DNA from: a virus
Reading direction: 5' to 3' (one strand)
Virus record (IMG/VR): IMGVR_UViG_3300022701_000029
Span: 1-41,207 of that record
DNA: 41,207 nt
The number at the start of each line of letters is the position of its first letter. The first letter of the stretch is position 1. The position numbers and the translations under genes are program-made. Shown here one piece after another: positions 1 through 41,207 of this stretch. The notes beneath the pieces are model-generated. The model did not search any database. It was not told where the DNA came from and was given only the letters and a program-made list of their open reading frames with translations.

Positions 1-99
1 CACGCCAATGGCTGCCGCTATACCGAAACTATCGATGAAGGTAAAGCTGGTCGTTCCATTAGTGAACAGATCAAGCTACGTATCGATGCTCGAGCACGT
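1..99. repeat. Left copy of 99-bp exact terminal direct repeat
   Basis: Bases 1-99 are identical to 41109-41207. The repeat lies inside the ligase reading frame, which is continuous across the join. A coding repeat of this length is typical of the k-mer overlap left when an assembler closes a circular or circularly permuted genome. A true short terminal repeat cannot be excluded from the sequence alone. Confidence 0.95.
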
Positions 100-19832: not shown

Positions 19833-20812
19833 TATAACCCCATTAATCCGAAGATGTCCATCACCCTCGGGTCAAGTTTTGTAGCTTCTCCCGAACCACT
19901 GTATGGAGGGAATCCGTATGACCAGTCTTCAATAACCTCTGGGGATTCACCTACAAGCATATCACCTAAACCTAAACCACCAAGTAGTGGTATCATCTCT
20001 GGTACATGTGCATAATTTGCTGCGTCACGTACTTTACCCAATCCTTTAGACACCGCACCACCTATAGGATTCTGTGGAATAGGTGATACTGAACCATAAG
20101 CCATTGGTGCGGCTATCTCGTCTAACTGAGGAGCTCTAAGACCACTCAGTGGCATCGCACCTACGGCAAATGGTGCTTTACCTGTTTTTGCCATAGAGTT
20201 AAGGTATTCTTCGACAGGCATACCTCGACCACTATTTAATGCTTTATTGAGTTCATCACCTAATACAACCGTCTCATGGTTATCTGCTAAGCCCATTGGG
20301 TGATATACTTCCTGCCCTGGGTCGAGACGATATAGCATGTTCGCCTCATCAATCTTATCAAAAGTCCGAAGAGGTATATCCTCTGGATCAAGTACGCTAG
20401 CAGAATAGTGATGATTACTTTGTAATGGTCCACGACCTTGAAACATATTGTTGTGGCTCAGTACATACATTGGCTCGTCTAATATAAACCGTGAATCATC
20501 AACGAACTTTTCCCAATGTTCTACACCCGGATATAAATCATCCATCATGTATCCATACAGACGATTTATATCATCCTCATATTTTGGATCACCTGTTTTG
20601 GCAAATAAATACTTTGCCTTTTCATATTCTGTTACCGTGTCCATGATCTCATCCATATTGAGATCATTTCGATGATCGGTTAGGTAACCTATATCCCCTC
20701 GCATCTTATGAAACACTTGTGATTCAGGTGAAGCGTCTTTCAAGATTTGCTCGCCTAAATCATCATACTCTTTCTGAGTAATGTGTTTCACTATGCCGGT
20801 GATCTTACCCAT
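19832..20812 (-). CDS. Hypothetical protein between terminase and portal (326 aa)
   Basis: Not recognised. Residues about 1-110 are charged and helical, with KEYDDLGEQILKDASPESQV near the start. The middle has HYSASVLDPEDIPLRTFDKI and DPGQEVYHPMGL. The last 100 residues are Gly/Pro-rich with a hydrophobic stretch (MIPLLGGLGLGDMLVG). No catalytic motif or signal peptide. Position suggests a head-related or ejected protein. One-base overlaps on both sides show it belongs to the late operon. Confidence 0.55.
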   Translation of the reverse strand: MGKITGIVKHITQKEYDDLGEQILKDASPESQVFHKMRGDIGYLTDHRNDLNMDEIMDTVTEYEKAKYLFAKTGDPKYEDDINRLYGYMMDDLYPGVEHWEKFVDDSRFILDEPMYVLSHNNMFQGRGPLQSNHHYSASVLDPEDIPLRTFDKIDEANMLYRLDPGQEVYHPMGLADNHETVVLGDELNKALNSGRGMPVEEYLNSMAKTGKAPFAVGAMPLSGLRAPQLDEIAAPMAYGSVSPIPQNPIGGAVSKGLGKVRDAANYAHVPEMIPLLGGLGLGDMLVGESPEVIEDWSYGFPPYSGSGEATKLDPRVMDIFGLMGL

Positions 20813-22215
20813 CAGGTGATCATCCTATTTACTTGGCTATAGTCAATTGGGTCATTGTCAAATCCGCCAATGACATTATCACTACCTACAGCACCTAGTA
20901 CCATGTATTGTAATGCGTCGGCAACGTGTGAATATCGGCCTTTATCTGGTTTATCCATGAATCTGGCTTCACCCGTTACTTGCATACGCTTATACTTATA
21001 ACCACCCGCCAGAGCTTTGCGTACCATCTTGGCCTTTGGGCCTACTACGAATGCTGGTTGTCCTCCGAAGTCGAGACGCTGCATATAGTCTGCTACGACT
21101 TCTCTCCGTATGGAGAAATCATTCGTGTACGTCGGCCAAGCTGTTATACCCTCACTTTCTAGAATCATGAAAGGTGTACGCTCATCGGTCTGAGCTCTTT
21201 GCTCTCCCGCGGGGTCTGCGTAGATCTCCAGCGGGTGGTTACCATACTCTTTATTCAATTTCTTCCTGAGAAGTCGACCAAAGTTCTTAGCACCCATATC
21301 TTCAGTCGTCAACTCATCAATAATCTGTACCTGACCCGTCGCAGTAATTCGTCCAATGACTGCTGCTGGAGTCAATCCGAAGTCAATACCTACATAAATA
21401 ATACTGGACTTCGGCACATCGCCCAACACTTCACGATAATGAGTGTCGTCTTTATATTCTGGCCAAACTGGCTTACCGTCGCTCACGAAGCCATACATCC
21501 CGTGGACATATACGTTAATCCACTCTTTGTCCTTACCACCGCACATATTCTTGTAATAGTTCGCTGGCAAATTGTCAATGTTCTCTGCATGCTCTGACAA
21601 ACCACTCGGCTGGTCATAGTGCTTCCAATTATCTGGACAATCTTCTTCAAATACCTTGTACCACCAATGGTCAGTGTCGGGTGGGTTTGTGTCCATGATA
21701 ACGCCCCACCATGAAGCACCGCCCTGACGCCTCGACGGATATCGTCCAACACGACCTTGGAGCATGTCGACAACAGATTTTGGTATCTCTTTTGCCTCAT
21801 TAACCCATCCACCTGTAAGCTCTAACGATAAGAGCTTCTTCACATCGTTCGGTTTGTCGAGTGCTCTAAACAACACTTCTAGATACAATAACGTCCCATC
21901 TGGTAATGGTCTAATTATCGTATGTGACATGTTACCTTGTGACCATGTACCGATTTTCTCTGGGTACCAGTCTGTCCATGTCTTTATTGTTGTATCAACT
22001 AATTCACGATAAGTATTACGAATTATAACCCATCGTGACCGTCTAACCCGATTGTGTGCTTTCTGTGCCATGGCTCGTAACATGATCTCATGACACATAC
22101 CCACTGACTTACCAGAACCGATCGGGCCTTTTATACCACGTACAAAGGCCGTCTCCATGTCAGTGTCTTTATGGAGCTGTAGAAGTGTTTTGGAAGGGAA
22201 ATACTCAACTTTCAA
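20812..22215 (-). CDS. terL: Terminase large subunit
   Basis: ATPase and nuclease that packages the genome. Walker A is GPIGSGKS (residues 30-37). Walker B with catalytic Glu is LTGGWVNEA (Glu140). The RNase H-like nuclease domain begins with VGIDFG (Asp278), followed by IYADPAGEQR (Asp334) and SHVADALQY (Asp433). Length of 467 is normal. It overlaps the small-subunit candidate by 11 bases. Together with the coding terminal repeat this fits a headful-type, circularly permuted genome, though the packaging mode is not proven. Confidence 0.95.
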   Translation of the reverse strand: MKVEYFPSKTLLQLHKDTDMETAFVRGIKGPIGSGKSVGMCHEIMLRAMAQKAHNRVRRSRWVIIRNTYRELVDTTIKTWTDWYPEKIGTWSQGNMSHTIIRPLPDGTLLYLEVLFRALDKPNDVKKLLSLELTGGWVNEAKEIPKSVVDMLQGRVGRYPSRRQGGASWWGVIMDTNPPDTDHWWYKVFEEDCPDNWKHYDQPSGLSEHAENIDNLPANYYKNMCGGKDKEWINVYVHGMYGFVSDGKPVWPEYKDDTHYREVLGDVPKSSIIYVGIDFGLTPAAVIGRITATGQVQIIDELTTEDMGAKNFGRLLRKKLNKEYGNHPLEIYADPAGEQRAQTDERTPFMILESEGITAWPTYTNDFSIRREVVADYMQRLDFGGQPAFVVGPKAKMVRKALAGGYKYKRMQVTGEARFMDKPDKGRYSHVADALQYMVLGAVGSDNVIGGFDNDPIDYSQVNRMIT

Positions 22216-22510
22216 GAGCTAAAGCCTCACCCTCAATAATCGTCGAATACTCATCTTCTTCCAAGTCTACAGTTAAGCCATGAGCGATTAACTCAAGCTC
22301 ATCCATATCGCCGCCAATCCTAGCCGAAATGTCGATGCTCTTAACTTCTGGAGTCGTATATTTCAACATCGTTTTTACAGCATCAAGCTGTACATTTATA
22401 GGCGCGTCCTGGTCGTGGGCGATGTCCGCTGCATGCACGATCGGGTGATAGCCGGGGTATCGGTCCTGGATCAAGCGGAGTAGTTGCTCACCCGTTTTGA
22501 TCGCTGACAT
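22205..22510 (-). CDS. Terminase small subunit candidate (101 aa)
   Basis: First gene of the late operon, directly before terL. RYPGYHPIVHAADIAHDQDA and DAVKTMLKYTTPEVKSIDI resemble the oligomerisation part of podovirus small terminases, which select the packaging site. The C-terminal third is acidic. A clear N-terminal HTH is not obvious, so the protein is shorter than many relatives. ATG at 22510 follows GAGG by 6 bases; a perfect 11-bp hairpin sits 18 bases upstream of it. Confidence 0.7.
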   Translation of the reverse strand: MSAIKTGEQLLRLIQDRYPGYHPIVHAADIAHDQDAPINVQLDAVKTMLKYTTPEVKSIDISARIGGDMDELELIAHGLTVDLEEDEYSTIIEGEALALES

Positions 22511-22527
22511 GGATACCTCTATTTGTT

Positions 22528-22552
22528 TACAATAATTCTATGAATTATTGTA
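22528..22552. promoter_or_regulatory. Perfect 11-bp inverted repeat in the late-operon leader
   Basis: TACAATAATTC at 22528-22538 and its exact complement at 22542-22552 are separated by three bases. In the minus-strand transcript it would be an AU-rich hairpin 18 bases before the small-terminase start, close to the ribosome site. It could be an operator or a translational control hairpin. There is no T-tract to make it a terminator. Confidence 0.55.
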
Positions 22553-22642
22553 CTGCCTTGGGAGCCAAAAGTACATAGCAGGGGAGAGCAAAGTTACAAA
22601 GATCTTTGCTAAGGGATACCATAGAGGTTAATCCCGCGCTCC

Positions 22643-22671
22643 TACGCGCGTGCGCACGCGCATAATATAAT
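22643..22671. promoter_or_regulatory. Alternating purine-pyrimidine tract with 16-bp palindrome, followed by TATAAT
   Basis: Bases 22643-22663 alternate pyrimidine and purine without a break and contain the perfect palindrome GCGCGTGCGCACGCGC (22646-22661). TATAAT follows at 22666-22671 on the plus strand. The preceding CTCCTACGC is shared with a similar tract at 24291. Such tracts are prone to left-handed (Z) DNA. No convincing -35 box is seen, so promoter activity is only a possibility. Confidence 0.45.
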
Positions 22672-22678
22672 GAGTAAA

Positions 22679-22709
22679 TAGTACTTTTAAAACTTAGTTA
22701 AAAGTACTA
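22679..22709. promoter_or_regulatory. 12-bp perfect inverted repeat, spacer 7
   Basis: TAGTACTTTTAA (22679-22690) and its exact complement (22698-22709) flank AACTTAG. It lies between the ACCGGT palindromes and the late operon. The corresponding place upstream of the dCMP deaminase gene (40360-40395) has a similar AT-rich segment with AAGTTAAACTTTTAAAA. Likely a regulator-binding site or a weak hairpin. Confidence 0.5.
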
Positions 22710-22713
22710 ACCA

Positions 22714-22820
22714 AAGCGCTACCGGAGCTCTCTGGAGTTAACCGGTCAGCGCCGGGGAGCGTCGTACGTAGACCTATATAAGTTAAAATTGAGCTACTCT
22801 GGAGCGCACCGGTTAGCTCC
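22714..22820. promoter_or_regulatory. Cluster of three ACCGGT-centred palindromes (control region A)
   Basis: Three related 20-bp imperfect palindromes are present. Site 1 is GGAGCGCACCGGTTAGCTCC (22801-22820), site 2 is GGAGTTAACCGGTCAGCGCC (22734-22753), and site 3 is AAGCGCTACCGGAGCTCTCT (22714-22733). Sites 2 and 3 are directly adjacent (20 bp centre to centre, about two helical turns). Site 1 is identical, in opposite orientation, to the site at 40243-40262. Between sites 1 and 2, reading the minus strand, there is TATATAGGTCTACG, whose counterpart TATATAAGCCTACG occurs in region B. Likely operators for a dimeric regulator of the late operon. Confidence 0.7.
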
Positions 22821-22875
22821 TGGGACTCTCTGTAATATAGTCTCTTAACCATCGTATTAGGTCTATGGCACGTCG

Positions 22876-22917
22876 GCACTAAACTCATAGCACTAAACCC
22901 ACAGCACTAAACCCACA
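22876..22917. repeat. Three tandem 14-bp repeats
   Basis: GCACTAAACTCATA (22876-22889) is followed by two identical copies of GCACTAAACCCACA (22890-22903, 22904-22917). The array is bordered on both sides by a GTCGGC motif (CACGTCGGCAC on the left, GCGCGTCGGCGCC on the right). Possibly a protein-binding array. Too short and without spacers, so not CRISPR. Confidence 0.8.
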
Positions 22918-23212
22918 GCGCGTCGGCGCCATGGTTGTTTTGTGTCGTAGCTTGACGTGGGAGGTAATTTGCCCAGGATTCCGGAAAATTTTTACTCAAA
23001 GTGAGCCCCGACCCTTGCGGTACAGCATTGACATTGACCAACGATCGAAAGGCCCCCTACATGCCTGCGTACGTCGTCAGGCGGCACACACGCACGTCGG
23101 CACGCAGGTTCACGTTCGTAAGTTATTGATTTCTATCGCAATATTGCCGCTATAAGTTTTATTTATATGGCTATACGAAATTTTAATTGTACTATCGCTT
23201 TTGCTCACGGTA

Positions 23213-23237
23213 GGATTGCTACTGTCAATCGCAATCC
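23213..23237. promoter_or_regulatory. Inverted repeat upstream of the HTH gene
   Basis: GGATTGC (23213-23219) and GCAATCC (23231-23237) flank 11 bases and sit 49 bases before the start of the HTH gene. The spacing suits an operator for autoregulation or a leader hairpin. Evidence is the symmetry only. Confidence 0.4.
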
Positions 23238-23285
23238 AGCGTTGACGCAACCACGGCCGCACCTTAGGTGCGAAGGAGATCGACG

Positions 23286-23642
23286 ATGAAAGACTTCAAC
23301 AACACTCAGCGCATCGCTATGCTCGAAGACGCAGTCGCAGCGCTTGCGGAACACGTGCACACCTTGCAGAGTGACAACATCGCGCTAAGAGCGCAGCTTG
23401 CGGAGGCACCACGTAGAGGCGCGAAGGAGCGCGACTACGGACCGAAGTCGCAACGTGCGATGGACGAGCGTATGGCGCTACGCATCCTCGTAGGCAGGTA
23501 CCGCGATTGGAGCGTACGCAAGATCGCCGATGAATGCGGCTTGAGCCGCGGACAAGTCTACTCGCTCAAAGGTGGATACACCTTCACCGATGTGCATCGC
23601 ACAGCGGACAAAATCCGCGAGCGCCGCGCACAACGCGCATAA
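23286..23642 (+). CDS. Coiled-coil plus helix-turn-helix DNA-binding protein (118 aa), GC-rich
   Basis: Residues about 5-48 form a Leu/Ala-rich coiled coil (QRIAMLEDAVAALAEHVHTL), suitable for dimerisation. Residues about 72-105 read as a HTH: WSVRKIADECGLSRGQVYSL, with the turn at ECGLS. ATG at 23286 follows AAGGAG (23273-23278) by 7 bases. The gene is alone, has its own strong terminator, and is clearly richer in G+C than the AT-rich genes around it, so it may be a recent acquisition. It stands between the two divergent blocks and is the only obvious HTH protein in the genome, so it is the natural candidate to bind the palindromes at 22714-22820 and 40243-40340. That link is inference. Confidence 0.8.
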   Translation: MKDFNNTQRIAMLEDAVAALAEHVHTLQSDNIALRAQLAEAPRRGAKERDYGPKSQRAMDERMALRILVGRYRDWSVRKIADECGLSRGQVYSLKGGYTFTDVHRTADKIRERRAQRA

Positions 23643-23687
23643 CGGACACAGGCACATGGACGTGCCACTACCATAGTCAAGCAACGG

Positions 23688-23717
23688 GCCGCGGTGCGAG
23701 AGTACCGCGGCTTTTTT
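23688..23717 (+). terminator. Rho-independent terminator after the HTH gene
   Basis: GCCGCGGT (23688-23695) and ACCGCGGC (23704-23711) form a perfect 8-bp GC-rich stem with an 8-base loop, followed by six T residues (23712-23717). It isolates the HTH gene from the early operon. Confidence 0.92.
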
Positions 23718-23870
23718 GTGCGTGTAACTTTCTCACAACGGACATCGATGCCATGATATGCGTCGGCACCGCGGCCCGATGCTCGTCATGTAGCGCACGA
23801 AGGACATTGATACATCACACAAAGACTAACGGGACATCGCACAACGGCACCATTAGGTTAAATAGAACAC

Positions 23871-24013
23871 CATTTAGTTACATAGTTACAGTACGATAAA
23901 GTTCTTTTATATAAGTATAAACTATGTACTTTTTGCGATACCGGTTTTTGCTAAAACACCATTTTAACCATATTTTATTTATATACTCTCTACTGTAACT
24001 ATGTAACTAAATG
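23871..24013. repeat. Perfect 23-bp inverted repeat with 97-bp spacer
   Basis: The arm at 23871-23893 begins CATTTAGTTACATAG and the arm at 23991-24013 is its exact reverse complement. Each arm contains two TAGTTAC/GTAACTA heptamers 8 bp apart. The spacer is AT-rich (TTTTAT and TATTTTATTTATATA runs). A perfect match of this length on both sides of an AT-rich segment is characteristic of initiation or regulatory sites. Confidence 0.9.
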
Positions 24014-24247
24014 ATAATTAATAAAGAAATCAGATGCCGTAAGTTATTGTTTTTATTATGTTTGTGCCGACGCACTTCGTGGCAACAATCCCTTCACGTT
24101 GTAACTATTACTGTAACTATATGAGATCTATTACTGTAACTATTACGATACTTAGCATCACACTCTCCTTATATTAGGCCTTACTAATATATAAATAGTT
24201 ACCACAATAGTTACAATAATATCCCATTTAGTTACTAACTTAGTTAC
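23875..24247. other. Iteron-like TAGTTAC array; candidate replication origin
   Basis: Forward TAGTTAC copies start at 23875, 23883, 24196, 24208, 24229 and 24241. Reverse copies (GTAACTA) start at 23995, 24003, 24101, 24113 and 24136. Spacings are 8, 12, 21 or 23 bp within groups. The four groups alternate in direction (two forward, two reverse, three reverse, four forward). Eleven copies of a heptamer in 373 bp, in AT-rich DNA lying between the late block and the replication genes, fit a phage origin with initiator-binding sites. A repressor or transcription-control array is the alternative. Confidence 0.6.
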
Positions 24248-24290
24248 ACGTGGTTCTTTATACAAAGATTTATGAGAGATCTATCCCTCC

Positions 24291-24312
24291 TACGCATGCG
24301 TGCGCGTATAAT
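24291..24312 (+). promoter_or_regulatory. Alternating purine-pyrimidine tract with TATAAT before the early operon
   Basis: Bases 24291-24310 alternate pyrimidine and purine, starting TACGCATGCGTGCGCG, and run into TATAAT (24307-24312). The preceding CTCCTACGC matches the one before the tract at 22643. TATAAT lies 58 bases before the first early gene and could be its -10 box, but no consensus -35 is seen at 17 +/- 1 bp. Confidence 0.45.
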
Positions 24313-24369
24313 AAATGTATGGCTAGATTATGCCTAATGACCTTAACCCTTAAGTTAAAGGAGATTATG

Positions 24370-24633
24370 ATGTATCTTTATGCTATCAACATCGTATCGG
24401 CCGAGGTGCCGACGCGCCCAGATGAGTGCGTAGTCGACGTTCAATGGATGACACAAGACGAGAGAATCATTAGTGGTGACACTTTTATTAGTGACACATT
24501 GGATAACGCTATTGAGTGTGCGAAGGACTACGCACGTGAGCATGCACCAAAGGCTAATACCGAAGACTTTGGTAAATTTAATGGTATCTATGATTTTGTA
24601 TCTAAAGGAGGATGTAATGGCAATGACGTTTGA
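24370..24633 (+). CDS. Early hypothetical protein (87 aa)
   Basis: First gene of the plus-strand early cluster. Two adjacent ATGs occur (24367 and 24370); AAAGGAG is best spaced for the second. The protein has an N-terminal strand (MYLYAINIVSAEVP), an acidic middle and a helix (DNAIECAKDYAREHAPKA). Unrecognised. Genes at the front of early operons often encode host take-over or anti-defence factors, but nothing specific is visible here. Confidence 0.6.
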   Translation: MYLYAINIVSAEVPTRPDECVVDVQWMTQDERIISGDTFISDTLDNAIECAKDYAREHAPKANTEDFGKFNGIYDFVSKGGCNGNDV

Positions 24634-28202: not shown

Positions 28203-30452
28203 ATGTCTAACGAGATACCTTCAGCCCTGAGTGCGGGGTTGAAATTCTTGCGATATATCGGTGAACCATATGGTATTATTCCGATAACAATCAAGAACGG
28301 CACTAAAAGACCAATGGTCAAGATTAAAGATAATCTTGGCAATGTTCACAGACTCGATGATAAAGAATATCTAAAAGCTTGGGATGATGCCGAATACTAT
28401 GGTATCGTAACTTCCCCACGATTCAATCCTGATATCAAGAAGCAACTCTTCATTATTGATGTCGATGTGCCGTCAGAAGGAGGTCATGATAATGATGGAC
28501 GTATACACCTTGACAAGCTCAGTATTCCTGACACTTTCACTGTTACAACTCCTAGCGGTGGCATTCACTATTATTTATGGACTGATCTCGGACAACGCTT
28601 CAAACACGCACCGTATCCTGGAATTGACATTGTACACATGTCTCCTTTCTATGCTGTTGGTGTGGGTAATACTGGTTATGAGTTAATTAATAAGAAGCCA
28701 ATTGCCGATGCGCCGATAGAGCTGATTGAAGAGTTACGTTATGTCAATGAACAGGGTGAAACAGAAAAGAGAGATGATAAGACCTCGATTCTGAATGAGA
28801 TTATGACCAATGGTATCCCATCAGGTCAACGTCATAATACTATCCTACGATTAATGGCCAGCCTCGTACGTAGGCGTATTCCCAAAACCGAAGCAATGGC
28901 TATCGCTGAGTTAGCTATTGGTAAGTGTGACCAATCAGATGGATTACCTACACTTGAAGAAGCATCGGCACAGTATGATGATGCCATGCAGAAATTCACA
29001 GTTGGTAGTACGCTTGACGATCTCCTCGATGATTTGGTTCTACTAACAGGTGATAACGTTGTTAAGCGTATATCTAAACCTACAGAGGTGGCTATATCAG
29101 CTACAGCTCTGTCGAATGTATATCCTCAACGTGTACCTAACCTGAATCTACCACCTAACAAGAACGGTGACTTCCAGATGTCGCCATTAGGTAGAGTATG
29201 GCTTGACTCACCAGATAAGAAACAAGCCAGTACTGAGGGTTACTTCCCTTGTCCTGATCCAATATTCAATCGCCATGGTAATAGGTTCTTCAATAAGTAT
29301 CAACCACCAATGATACAGACAGTGACGAATTACGATCAAATAGCGGTTCGTAAATTTCAAGATGTGTTTAAGCGTACTTATGGTCCTATCTATGAGGACT
29401 GGTTGAAGATCATGAAATACAAATGGCTTCACCCATACACTAAGTTTGCATGGAGTATCTACCTGACATCGAGATATGAAGGAACAGGTAAAGGTCTTAG
29501 TTGGAAGCTGACACAAGAGTTATTCCATAAATCAAATTGTTTGAGTCTCAATGTTAATGACATTGGGGCACGATTTAACGTGTCTCTATCAGAGGCAACG
29601 TTCGCACTTGTCGACGAAGCACATGGTGCCAGAAACCCATCACACCGAAATAATATGATGAATGCCATTAAGAGAGTCATTACTGAAGAGACGATGACAA
29701 CTGAAGGCAAGAATAAAGAGAAACAGATCGGTGTCGAATCTTATTTCTTCATGTACATATTCTCTAATGACCGTACAGCTTTGGAAATCTCTAAAGACAG
29801 TAGACGTTTTCTAGTCTACCATGATGAAGAGCCGAAGACCGTTGAGCAAGAAAAACGAATGTACCAAGTTGGTGATATGCTACGTGATCCAACTAAAGTG
29901 GCCGACTTCTTATCGTGGATGATACAAGAAGTCGACTGCTCTATAACGGATGATTTCAATCCGTTGGGCGTCGCTCGTAAGACCGATGATCTTATGTCCT
30001 CTAGTCAAGATGTATACCTGTCTCCTGAAGCACAAAAAGTTAAAGATGATATAGAACACCGTTCCAACATATTCTTTGCGGATTTGGTTACTAGAACCCA
30101 GCTTGAGTATTATAGCTTATGTGAATTTGGTCAAAACAAGGCATATAAGATTGTGCAAGAGCTGTTAGATCGTAGTGTAGTGAAAACAATATCTGCACCT
30201 ACACCTAAGAATCCTCGCCAGGTTAAACGATATAATCTTGAACCTCTTGATATGACTTTAGCAAGAGACGGTATGGATATACGTGACTCATATAAAATGT
30301 CAGATGGAAAACGTCAGACACCAATACTATGTGTCCGTAACCATGATGAATACGAGATCATGGATAAATCAGAGCTAAAGAAGAGATTCGATGCAGAGAT
30401 CGGAAAGAACGGCCCTCGTAAATCAGGCGGTCACCTTACTACTGTTGATTAA
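28203..30452 (+). CDS. Bifunctional primase-polymerase / SF3 helicase (749 aa)
   Basis: The N-terminal domain is an archaeo-eukaryotic primase (PrimPol): FIIDVDVP gives the DxD pair (Asp86, Asp88) and SGGIHYYLW gives the conserved His122. The C-terminal domain is an SF3/DUF5906-type helicase: Walker A EGTGKGLSW (Lys430), Walker B FALVDEAHG (Asp471, Glu472), then a sensor strand FFMYIFSND and an Arg-rich segment SKDSRRFLVY. This one protein would prime and unwind at the fork. The ATG has a GGGAGAG site close upstream. It is followed by an 18-bp palindrome. Confidence 0.88.
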   Translation: MSNEIPSALSAGLKFLRYIGEPYGIIPITIKNGTKRPMVKIKDNLGNVHRLDDKEYLKAWDDAEYYGIVTSPRFNPDIKKQLFIIDVDVPSEGGHDNDGRIHLDKLSIPDTFTVTTPSGGIHYYLWTDLGQRFKHAPYPGIDIVHMSPFYAVGVGNTGYELINKKPIADAPIELIEELRYVNEQGETEKRDDKTSILNEIMTNGIPSGQRHNTILRLMASLVRRRIPKTEAMAIAELAIGKCDQSDGLPTLEEASAQYDDAMQKFTVGSTLDDLLDDLVLLTGDNVVKRISKPTEVAISATALSNVYPQRVPNLNLPPNKNGDFQMSPLGRVWLDSPDKKQASTEGYFPCPDPIFNRHGNRFFNKYQPPMIQTVTNYDQIAVRKFQDVFKRTYGPIYEDWLKIMKYKWLHPYTKFAWSIYLTSRYEGTGKGLSWKLTQELFHKSNCLSLNVNDIGARFNVSLSEATFALVDEAHGARNPSHRNNMMNAIKRVITEETMTTEGKNKEKQIGVESYFFMYIFSNDRTALEISKDSRRFLVYHDEEPKTVEQEKRMYQVGDMLRDPTKVADFLSWMIQEVDCSITDDFNPLGVARKTDDLMSSSQDVYLSPEAQKVKDDIEHRSNIFFADLVTRTQLEYYSLCEFGQNKAYKIVQELLDRSVVKTISAPTPKNPRQVKRYNLEPLDMTLARDGMDIRDSYKMSDGKRQTPILCVRNHDEYEIMDKSELKKRFDAEIGKNGPRKSGGHLTTVD

Positions 30453-30749: not shown

Positions 30750-32591
30750 ATGCTTAACCTCGACGAACTCTCCGCAACGGATGTTGAAACCGCACCGACA
30801 GTAAAAACCGATAAGCCTTACGCACTTGAGCCTTGGCGTGTTAAACAAGGTAAAGCACAGATCACTTGTGCTACATTTGCAGGACTATTTAATGGTACTG
30901 CAGAACACCACGATAACTTTCATGAGAAATTATTAGAGGCACTTGAGGCCTTACGTGGTAAACATATTGTTTGCCATAATGCTTTATTTGATGTGGCTTG
31001 GTTATTAGCGACAGTCAAAGACTATGACTTGATTAATAGTATCCATTGGCTTGATTCCAGTCTCTTATCCAGATGGTTAGAAAATGGCCAACAAGCTGAG
31101 AAAGAGAAGCTTAGTCACTCATTGATTAATTGTTGTAACCGTCATCTTAAAGACCACCCCGATATCGATAAGTTCAATGATGTTAAATTCCAGACCGTTA
31201 CACCTGGTGATAACTATGAGTATTGGTTAGAGCGTAACAAACTCGATACTCGTATGACTCTTGACTTATTCAAAGTCATGTGGAAGAAGTTACCTGTTGA
31301 GCAACAACGTGGGTTCTTGATTGAGCAAAAGTGTATTGCACCTATCGCTAAAGGTTGGTTACAAGGTATACCATTTGATGCGGTCTATTTGAGTGATCTA
31401 CATAAGAAACTGGAAGTTAAAAAGCAACAACTCTGTAAAGAGCTTGGTGTTGATACAAAACTACTGGGTTCTCCAAAACAAAAGCAAGCTCTTATATTTG
31501 GTCAGTGGAAACTGAAACCCATCAAATATACACCAGCCGGTAACCCATCTACGGCACATGATGTGTTAATGCGTATGCATCAACAAACTAATGATTCACG
31601 CTTTGATAAATTAATGGCTGCCATTAAGATCAATACGATTCAATCCAAATATACTTCTGGATTCCAACGTACTCTCAAATATGTTGGAGAAGAAGTACTT
31701 TATGGTAGTCCACGTATTTTTGGTACTTATACTGGTCGTATGACTTACTCGAATAAGACTACGAAAAAGCAAGAGCATCAAGTATCAATAGCTCTTCATC
31801 AAGTGCCGAGGAAAGCGAAGAGCATCAAGCATGGTATGAAGATACCTGAAGGCATGGCACTTATAGCTGTAGATGCTAACTCACAAGAACTCCGTTGGGT
31901 TGCTGAAAAGTCAATGGATGATAAGCTTATTGAAGGTTATAAGCAAGGTAAAGATCTACACTCAGATATGACGGCCTCCATATATGGTAGACCATATGAA
32001 GAGGTTGTGGAGGGCAATAAGAATGACGTTAAAGAGATCGTCGAAGAGAGACAGTCTGGTAAGCTCCTTAATCTATCTTGTCAATACCGAATTGGTCCAC
32101 CAGCCCTTGCCGAAAAATTCTTCACCACCTATGAAAAAGATATTGATATTGGTACAGCGAGAAGATACCTTAGTCTATACAAGAGACAGTATCCTGGAGT
32201 CGTTAGATACTGGGACGACTCAATTGCGTTGGCGCGTCAAAAAGGATACGCCGAAACAGTGGGAGGCCGTCGTTACAAGATTACCAAGTTCGACTGGTCA
32301 GGGGAATCATCAGCCATTAATTTTCCAATTCAGGGCAGTGGAGCTGATCATACATATGCTACAATAGCTATGTTGAATAAGAAGTATCCATTCCTTATTC
32401 TAGTTCTTCAGCTACATGATGGACTATATTACTTCTGTCCTAAAGATATAGTTATCGATGTAGCTAAAGAAATTATGGAGATCACTAACACGGATGTGTA
32501 TGTCAAAATCTTTAAGAAAGACTTACCGATTAAATTCCCATTCGATGGTGGGTATTCATTCGAATCATTTGCTAAAATCACTAATCTTTAA
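30750..32591 (+). CDS. Family A DNA polymerase with 3'-5' exonuclease (613 aa)
   Basis: Exonuclease motifs: DVE (Asp11, Glu13), CHNALFD (Asn77, Asp81) and NKLDTRMT (Asp166). Polymerase motif A is AVDANSQELRW (Asp375), motif B RQSGKLLNLSCQYRIG (Arg434, Lys438, Tyr446) and motif C QLHDGLYYF (His556, Asp557). NFPIQGSGAD precedes motif C as usual. The Glu of the common HDE motif C is Gly here. Both catalytic metal-binding Asp residues are kept, so activity is expected. GGAG lies 5 bases before the ATG. This is the replicative polymerase; it must accept modified dCTP if the modification model is right. Confidence 0.92.
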   Translation: MLNLDELSATDVETAPTVKTDKPYALEPWRVKQGKAQITCATFAGLFNGTAEHHDNFHEKLLEALEALRGKHIVCHNALFDVAWLLATVKDYDLINSIHWLDSSLLSRWLENGQQAEKEKLSHSLINCCNRHLKDHPDIDKFNDVKFQTVTPGDNYEYWLERNKLDTRMTLDLFKVMWKKLPVEQQRGFLIEQKCIAPIAKGWLQGIPFDAVYLSDLHKKLEVKKQQLCKELGVDTKLLGSPKQKQALIFGQWKLKPIKYTPAGNPSTAHDVLMRMHQQTNDSRFDKLMAAIKINTIQSKYTSGFQRTLKYVGEEVLYGSPRIFGTYTGRMTYSNKTTKKQEHQVSIALHQVPRKAKSIKHGMKIPEGMALIAVDANSQELRWVAEKSMDDKLIEGYKQGKDLHSDMTASIYGRPYEEVVEGNKNDVKEIVEERQSGKLLNLSCQYRIGPPALAEKFFTTYEKDIDIGTARRYLSLYKRQYPGVVRYWDDSIALARQKGYAETVGGRRYKITKFDWSGESSAINFPIQGSGADHTYATIAMLNKKYPFLILVLQLHDGLYYFCPKDIVIDVAKEIMEITNTDVYVKIFKKDLPIKFPFDGGYSFESFAKITNL

Positions 32592-36996: not shown

Positions 36997-38577
36997 ATGC
37001 GAGATCTACTACTAACTCTTGGCCATAATGCCTCAGCTATCGCTGTAGAAGATGGGAATCTAATAGCTGGTTACGAAGAAGAGCGTCTGTCAAAGATCAA
37101 GTCTGATAGCCACTTCCCAGAAAAAGCTATTGCAGAACTTGGTTTCGATGATTATGACCGAGTATATGTGTCACATTGGGAACCATTTGCTGACGTCAAT
37201 AAAATGAAGGATAAGCATTGGCAACCAAGCAAACTACCATTCGGTGCCGAAGTAATTAGTCTCAATAAAGACTTTACACACCATGATGCGCATATGTGGA
37301 GTGCTAAAGCTTTTCTGGGTGCCGACGTATCTGAAATGGATAATCCATACTATTTAGTTGTCGATGGATTCGGTAACTTTGGTGAATGCATCTCTGTATA
37401 CACATCAGATGGTGAACTTATTCACAGAGTACATGGGTACAACGGCAGCCTCGGCCTGATGTATCAATATGCCACAGCTAATATTGGTCTCAAGATGAAT
37501 GAAGACGAGTATAAGCTTCTTGGTTACGAGTCTCAAATCACTGATAAGGATGCTCTTGCACTTGAACCTGTAATCGCCGAAATCTTCCAGTATTTGACAA
37601 CTGTATTCATGTGCCCTCAGCTTGAAAACAAAGCTGACCCACTATATAATATCAGTGCTCTTGTTGAGACACAAGTAATGTGGGATGATCTACTTGAACC
37701 GTGTGAAAGAGACAAGGTTAAAGTTGCATATGTGGTTCAGTCTGTTATCGAGCGTATGCTGATGCAGATAATTCAGAAATTCCAGATTCATGATGTAGTC
37801 CTGGTTGGCGGCTGTTTCTTAAATGTGAAACTTAACTATCGTATCATGGAACGTGTTAATGGTAAGGTAGCTGTCATGCCACTAAGTGGTGATCAAGGTG
37901 CTGCACTTGGTTTATACAAGTATCATAACCCTGATTTTGTCATGCCTAAGCACTTGTTCTGGGGTAAGAGAAAACTCGAACGTGTTGAACATGAGAAAGT
38001 GATGAACTTCGATGACCATGAAGAGATGGAGTACTGGTTACATCGTCTTCTCACGATGGATCAAATCGTTAATATTGTGTGGGGAGCCATGGAATTTGGG
38101 CCTCGTGCATTGTGTCACACATCAACTATAGCCACACCCACTATGGAAAATGTGCACTATATCAATAAACTTAATGGTCGTGCAACTGTTATGCCAATGG
38201 GTCCTGTTGTGAGTGAAGGGTTTGCTGAGAATAATTTCTTGGATTATCATAAATCTCTGCGTAGTCATGAGTTTATGATTACAGCAATGGAATACCATGA
38301 TGTTGCACCCAGTATCCGTGGCGCTGCACATAACCTACCACATGGTGAAGGATTTACTGGTCGTCCTCAAGTAATTGGTTCACACGACCCTCTTATGAAG
38401 GTGATGGGTAAATCTCTGGACGAGTTCGGTATTCTTATCAATACAAGCTTTAATATACATGGTGTCCCTATCGTATATGACAGCAATGATGTTCTGAAGT
38501 GTGTCAAGTATCAGGATGAGAACGATACAGCTGATCGTGTTTGGACTTTAGTTTATACAGGAGATGAGCATGTCTAA
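36997..38577 (+). CDS. NodU/TobZ-family O-carbamoyltransferase (526 aa), probable DNA-modification enzyme
   Basis: Family members move a carbamoyl group from carbamoyl phosphate, via carbamoyl-AMP, to a hydroxyl. N-terminal Kae1-like domain: LGHNASAIAVEDG (8-20), EEERLSKIK, THHDAHMWSA (metal-binding His95, His96, His99), VVDGFGNFGE (121-130) and VLVGGCFLNVKLN (268-280). C-terminal YrdC-like domain: MEFGPRALCHTS (365-376) and LINTSFNIHGVPIV (480-493). The usual GNRSILADPR and REPFRPFAP segments are altered here (ALCHTSTIATPT; RATVMPMGPVV). It is the first gene of the nucleotide cassette and has an AAAGGA ribosome site. With a hydroxymethylase-like gene nearby, 5-hydroxymethylcytosine is the likely acceptor. 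Confidence 0.88.
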   Translation: MRDLLLTLGHNASAIAVEDGNLIAGYEEERLSKIKSDSHFPEKAIAELGFDDYDRVYVSHWEPFADVNKMKDKHWQPSKLPFGAEVISLNKDFTHHDAHMWSAKAFLGADVSEMDNPYYLVVDGFGNFGECISVYTSDGELIHRVHGYNGSLGLMYQYATANIGLKMNEDEYKLLGYESQITDKDALALEPVIAEIFQYLTTVFMCPQLENKADPLYNISALVETQVMWDDLLEPCERDKVKVAYVVQSVIERMLMQIIQKFQIHDVVLVGGCFLNVKLNYRIMERVNGKVAVMPLSGDQGAALGLYKYHNPDFVMPKHLFWGKRKLERVEHEKVMNFDDHEEMEYWLHRLLTMDQIVNIVWGAMEFGPRALCHTSTIATPTMENVHYINKLNGRATVMPMGPVVSEGFAENNFLDYHKSLRSHEFMITAMEYHDVAPSIRGAAHNLPHGEGFTGRPQVIGSHDPLMKVMGKSLDEFGILINTSFNIHGVPIVYDSNDVLKCVKYQDENDTADRVWTLVYTGDEHV

Positions 38578-41032: not shown

Positions 41033-41207
41033 ATTAACTCTCTACGGACACGGTGTTTCGGGTATAAATGTATGGTCGGTGTGGAGTGAGGGGAACGTCA
41101 TCCACATCCACGCCAATGGCTGCCGCTATACCGAAACTATCGATGAAGGTAAAGCTGGTCGTTCCATTAGTGAACAGATCAAGCTACGTATCGATGCTCG
41201 AGCACGT
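41019..41207 (+). CDS. ATP-dependent DNA ligase, N-terminal part (continues at base 1)
   Basis: ATG at 41019 overlaps the previous gene by 14 bases and follows purine-rich GGAGCTTGAAGAAT. The first 63 residues are in the window. YGHGVSGINVWSVWSEGNVI and EGKAGRSISEQIKLRIDARA resemble a WGR-type domain found at the N-terminus of some phage ligases, where it probably binds DNA. The frame continues through the repeat and joins the catalytic domain described at 1-945; bases 41109-41207 are the same as 1-99. Confidence 0.88.
   Translation, partial: MKENELTLYGHGVSGINVWSVWSEGNVIHIHANGCRYTETIDEGKAGRSISEQIKLRIDARAR
41109..41207. repeat. Right copy of 99-bp terminal direct repeat
   Basis: Identical to bases 1-99, in the same orientation and the same ligase reading frame. 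Removing one copy closes a 41,108-bp circle. Confidence 0.95.

Follow-up and report, generated by a model that had tools for sequence, protein, structure and literature searches.

In P4, a single protein, alpha, unites primase, helicase and, at its C-terminus, a winged helix that binds the origin, and the P4 origin carries repeats in both directions; the origin-binding winged helix was reportedly described by Yeo in 2002. In SaPI, Rep recognizes the iterons through its C-terminal domain, and the origin lies behind the gene (Ubeda 2007, as far as it is quoted in PMC7581432). The P4 alpha primase is of the Toprim type, and ORF904 of pRN1 consists of an AEP domain, an SF3 helicase and a C-terminal winged helix, with no iterons; for enzymes of the pRN1 type, a stem-loop has been proposed as the recognized feature (PMC4234260). 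For PrimPols with a C-terminal winged helix, a role in finding the origin has been suggested, without proof (PMC5862659). The NrS-1 polymerase recognizes 5'-TTTGGTTA-3', an 8-nt priming site (PMC8718748), and two copies of this sequence, one on each strand, sit mid-genome in NrS-1 and form the proposed origin of that phage; no array has been reported (PMC7102993). The tail of the NrS-1 polymerase has been described as a new fold with importance for hexamer assembly (PMC7102993, PMC8718748).

We analysed a stretch of viral DNA of 41,207 nt (hereafter, the window) with an array of the heptamer TAGTTAC in front of its early genes. Like the SaPI system, it pairs a proposed helicase initiator with short repeats, and in two comparison loci, L004 and L010, the candidate origin immediately follows the helicase gene, as it does in SaPI. 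It differs from SaPI in that the window is a tailed phage with a fused AEP primase–SF3 helicase of the NrS-1 type, not a satellite, and its array lies 4 kb upstream of the helicase gene rather than directly downstream. The differences from P4 are an AEP PrimPol and another repeat word, and to see a winged helix in the tail of the window enzyme would be conjecture. The NrS-1 polymerase, which also has AEP, SF3 helicase and tail, is the nearest solved relative of the window enzyme. The pRN1 origin has an inverted repeat (21-nt stem, 58-nt loop; PMC4234260) comparable to the perfect one found here (Table 1).

An exact 99-bp direct repeat at the two ends of the window (1–99 and 41109–41207), probably an assembly overlap of a closed genome, closes it to a complete 41,108-bp map. 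One arm, with the terminase, portal and head genes, starts at 22.5 kb and points leftward; the other, with the early and replication genes, starts at ~24.4 kb and points rightward. Between the two arms lie a gene for a 118-aa HTH protein, a terminator-like hairpin and then the array. As predicted from the letters, the phage has its own PrimPol-helicase (PF09250 and PF19263); the early arm further encodes an exonuclease and an SNF2-like helicase. An exact DnaA box (TTWTNCACA) was not found at 22500–24500. Elsewhere in the window, three 14-bp units (GCACTAAACCCACA) stand in tandem upstream of the terminase genes (22876–22919), and a Nol-like carbamoyltransferase gene (phrog_1601, 36997–38577) possibly serves DNA or surface modification.

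Table 1. Positions of the features discussed, numbered from the first letter of the window
Feature	Position	Strand	Remarks
Terminase large subunit	20812..22215	-	Heads the opposite (late) arm; synteny anchor
Conserved element TAAGTTATTGATTTCT	23119..23134	+	Exact IHF consensus match; between terminase side and HTH gene
118-aa HTH protein (HTH_23-like)	23286..23642	+	Adjoins array; kept in L035
Terminator-like hairpin	23686..23713	+	Between HTH gene and array
Perfect 23-bp inverted repeat, 23871-23893 / 23991-24013	23871..24013	.	97-nt spacer, 74% AT
Putative iteron block 1	23875..23889	+	Two TAGTTAC (23875, 23883), spacing 8 bp
Putative iteron block 2	23995..24009	-	Two TAGTTAC (23995, 24003), opposite orientation to block 1
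Conserved element TAAGTTATTGTTTTTA	24040..24055	+	Between the iteron pairs, likewise in L035; TAAGTTATTGATTTAT with 3 mismatches
Second opposed pair of iteron blocks, imperfect	24099..24248	.	70% AT spacer
Putative iteron block 3	24101..24142	-	Three TAGTTAC (24101, 24113, 24136)
Putative iteron block 4	24196..24247	+	Four TAGTTAC (24196, 24208, 24229, 24241)
PrimPol (PF09250) + PriCT-1-like + SF3 helicase (DUF5906, NrS-1 polymerase-like)	28203..30452	+	Proposed initiator
DNA polymerase (phrog_17)	30750..32591	+	

The window contains 15 exact copies of TAGTTAC, 11 of which fall within the 373 bp from 23875 to 24247, as the original prediction had it. Its four groups of copies were recovered, with the regular spacings claimed (8; 8; 12/23; 12/21/12 bp in blocks 1–4), but not their strict alternation: the order of directions is + (2), - (2), - (3), + (4), giving two opposed pairs. 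At the local composition, chance would give about 0.08 copies in 373 bp, and the claim that the density is far above chance held throughout. No other heptamer of the window exceeds 6 copies in 400 bp (words overlapping TAGTTAC excluded), the top heptamer of simulated whole windows had 3–5 copies, 1000 simulations of the local region gave at most 6 for any heptamer, and 11 copies were reached in 0 of 500 local simulations. The setting is also AT-rich and non-coding, as described: the intergenic region is 62% AT overall, against 74% and 70% in the array spacers, and we found no convincing gene between the end of the small HTH gene at 23642 and the early genes. Folding of the array strand is far more favourable than that of shuffles (z -7.9), as it must be with opposed repeats, and the 23-bp inverted repeat with its AT-rich spacer is, from its sequence, a candidate unwinding element or cruciform. 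An identical array is present in an independent contig from another assembly (L002; 99.66% identity over 4.1 kb, 0 mismatches, one gap).

No close DNA relatives were found among cultured phages, and IMG/VR held few relatives of the HTH protein and the helicase; the comparison loci came from IMG/VR relatives of TerL together with relatives of the helicase. The prediction had proposed a search for repeats at the same position in related phages, and arrays were indeed present, with the same layout and different words, so the absence of repeats that it had named as a refutation was not observed. In the sister phage L035 (TerL 77% and helicase 60% identical to those of the window), TAGTTAT occurs 12 times at the same place and in the same block order (reverse, forward, element, forward, reverse). 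Read in the direction of L035, the blocks of the window are 4 reverse, 3 forward, element, 2 forward, 2 reverse, and those of L035 are (1 forward) 3 reverse, 4 forward, element, 3 forward, 2 reverse. The letter after TAGTTA is C in all 11 copies of the window and T in 12 of the 13 copies of L035, the remaining one having A. Since L035 carries TAGTTAT at the same place and in the same order, the whole array has changed its word. The DNA of the array segment is otherwise poorly conserved between the two (53% identity overall).

Two-direction arrays of other words were found in L010 (TAAGGAT, 11 copies), L004/L005 (AGGGAAA, 7–8), L081 (TAGGATA, 9), Vibrio phage VA-RY-3 (AGGATA, 9), L082 (TAGGGG, 10) and Vibrio phage PVA7 (AGGGGA, 11), and all exceeded local shuffles, being matched in 0–3 of 500 (13 of 500 for the heptamer of L082). 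In Cronobacter phage Ss1, copies of AGGGGAT/ATCCCC span the ends of the circular record. The array lies at the early/late junction in VA-RY-3, PVA7, Ss1, L081 and L082, as in the window, and directly 3' of a DUF3987 primase-helicase, before a RusA-like gene, in L004 and L010. We picked the array words as exact k-mers, so degenerate sites were missed; no exact heptamer array was found in the near-full-length relative G005/L016. TAGGGAT in L018 and TAAGTT in L058 were not clearly above shuffles and were not counted as further arrays. In Ss1 the record begins inside the array (KM058087.1 (L051), 42205/1), which hides the array in the annotation, and the PVA7 record (PQ582223.1, L086) seems rich in frameshifts, its features being hidden likewise. 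A different pattern, dense GTGCGTAGTGC and CTAACCCCTATGC repeats, flanks an HTH gene related to that of the window in L007 (541–640 and 1260–1600). A window-like order of terS, a ~200-aa gene, a two-direction array and early genes was seen in L185, L130, L138 and L121, with the words AAGTTCC, ATTGTTC, TGTAACA and AATGTTC, respectively. A GC-skew plot had been suggested as a check on the origin; the switch at 24 kb is real, but we rejected it as evidence, as the skew of the relatives goes with the coding strand and not with the array.

A conserved element, TAAGTTATTGATTTATAAG or a near form of it, recurs within or beside these arrays. At least 120 stretches of viral contigs (L087–L206) contain TAAGTYRTTGATTTATAAG; of the 120 matches listed, 118 have it outside long ORFs, and it is often ~70–210 bp from terS. 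Two-direction heptamer arrays were enriched around its exact copies in other viral contigs: among the matches listed, clusters of 8–12 copies lay within 300 bp of TAAGTYRTTGATTTATAAG in 11 of 124 cases, compared with 0 of 300 control segments. As a mark of the origin itself the element was rejected, being found by terS without an array too and fitting the IHF consensus. From its sequence, we take TAAGTYRTTGATTTATAAG to be an IHF-type site that would serve origins and other sites alike, not specific to origins.

Nine of the loci bearing the element form a family with PrimPol, an AAA ATPase, the array, terS and often a cytosine methylase. Each genome of this PrimPol-AAA family has one word, GTAGGGGCA, GTAGGGTCA or GTAGGTATG, in all its copies, and many of the array regions contain a perfect DnaA box, TTATCCACA. 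In an enlarged set of 62 loci with an array and a PrimPol C-terminus (among L207–L286; in L251 two words were tied and GGGGCA was taken), the word matched two residues of one helix, its positions 1 and 5, in 60 cases. The pairs are E..R with GGGGCA, E..M with GGTGCA, N or D..Q with GGGTCA, V..K with GGTACA and V..Q with GGTATG; the exceptions are L198 (E..M, GGGGCA) and L146 (N..K, GGGTCA). Among the 669 PrimPol columns, the best predictors of the word in 41 non-redundant sequences were columns 640 (1.44 bits) and 636 (1.23 bits), the third reaching 0.77; these two are positions 5 and 1 of the recognition helix. The PrimPol tree requires at least 17 changes of word, which makes recombination likely, and the word goes with the C-terminal domain rather than with the primase half. 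The sharpest case is the pair L278/L279, whose PrimPols differ by seven residues, all within 626–643, and whose arrays are nearly alike but have GGGTCA replaced by GGGGCA throughout. This switch and the covariation of word and helix show that in the PrimPol-AAA family the PrimPol reads the array. A model of the C-terminal domain built from 40 sequences (pLDDT ~90 over the fold) has the order helix-helix-helix-strand-strand, with 636 and 640 on helix 3, and matches many winged helices, the P4 origin-binding domain being absent among the fold matches listed. Papers describing such arrays, or a code linking residues to word, were not found in the literature searched, which lacks most subscription journals.

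The window enzyme consists of an AEP Prim-Pol domain followed by an NrS-1-type helicase, which places it among the NrS-1 polymerase-like PrimPols, and it aligns with the PrimPol-AAA enzyme in the primase half only (hhalign probability 94.8%, residues 34–242). We would join the window to that family by kind, not by alignment: the PrimPol half, the type of array, the element and the concerted change of word are common to both. The tail of its helicase (about residues 600–749) is one of its least conserved parts, 38–48% identical to that of L035 against 60% overall, and contains a strongly changed segment (GQNKAYKIVQELL in the window, GMANYNKVIRECF in L035) that is, judged from its sequence, likely the recognition helix. 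The change of word and the divergence of the tail co-occur in this one pair. No profile matched the tail, a sequence search against solved structures gave implausible matches only, and a model of the enzyme from three sequences had pLDDT 35. The covariation was measured in the other family, and from it we infer that the tail of the window helicase may be the reader.

The place of the array between divergent arms would also suit transcription control, the heptamers being repeated operators bound by a phage regulator, for example the 118-aa HTH protein, that silences or fires the early operon. The array does lie just upstream of the early genes, behind a terminator-like hairpin and beside an HTH gene kept in L035; the recognition segment of the HTH protein, however, hardly differs between the two phages (window RGQVYSLKGGYTF, L035 KGQVYSLTGGYTF) despite the change of word, and this protein is therefore probably not the reader. 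The arrays of L004 and L010 are flanked by two codirectional genes, in genomes with no homologue of the HTH protein, promoter-like sites were hardly more frequent than in shuffles, and the reader in the PrimPol-AAA family is the primase-polymerase. We consider control of transcription an unlikely function of the array.

The words could instead be template sites at which the N-terminal primase starts synthesis, comparable to the 8-nt site of NrS-1, and not double-stranded iterons. The helicase part of the window enzyme matches the NrS-1 phage polymerase (PDB 6k9c, E 2e-15), and TTTAGTTA, which differs from TTTGGTTA by a single letter, is found at 3 of the 11 copies. Yet the other 8 copies lack the extended match, TTTGGTTA itself occurs four times scattered over the window and never inside the array, and the word of the PrimPol-AAA family tracks the C-terminal domain rather than the primase half, which together make this reading very unlikely. 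It is still less probable that the array is a packaging start (pac/cos) to which the small terminase subunit binds: the terminase genes are 1.3–1.7 kb from the window array and, among the matches listed, other phages have the element and arrays ~70–210 bp from terS, but the best of 164 TerS columns predicts the word at 0.64 bits in 40 non-redundant PrimPol-AAA loci, identical TerS proteins go with different words (L207/L228), and the arrays of L004 and L010 are ~2 kb off terS, behind the primase-helicase.

We conclude that the array is probably a replication origin whose heptamers would be iterons bound by the phage's own PrimPol–SF3 helicase. The original prediction of an origin gains support from the arrays of the relatives and from the covariation of word and helix in the other PrimPol phage family. 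Points that speak against this conclusion are the alignment with that family in the primase half alone, the 4 kb between array and helicase gene, the missing exact DnaA box and the relative G005/L016 with no exact heptamer array. Monomers of the helicase would bind the heptamers through a C-terminal DNA-reading tail, and two helicase rings would load, opposed to each other, on the inverted iteron pairs. The AT-rich spacers would then open, the PrimPol half would prime leading strands in both directions and the phage DNA polymerase would extend both ways. The comparative support concerns the first of these steps, the binding of heptamers, and we infer loading, opening and priming.

On balance, we also favour a broader view, in which several families of PrimPol phages share a type of origin made of two-direction heptamer arrays and an IHF-like element. 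All copies of an array would have switched repeatedly in evolution, along with two recognition-helix residues of the replication enzyme, amounting to a natural DNA-reading code, and the window would be the member with TAGTTAC. The switching of whole arrays raises the question of how about eleven sites can change in step with a single protein, and whether a change of word separates a phage's own replication from that of rivals or satellites. Many phages and plasmids encode PrimPol-helicases, and arrays of this kind name candidate origins of uncultured PrimPol phages by sequence alone. The natural pairs L278/L279 and window/L035 make the reader directly testable.
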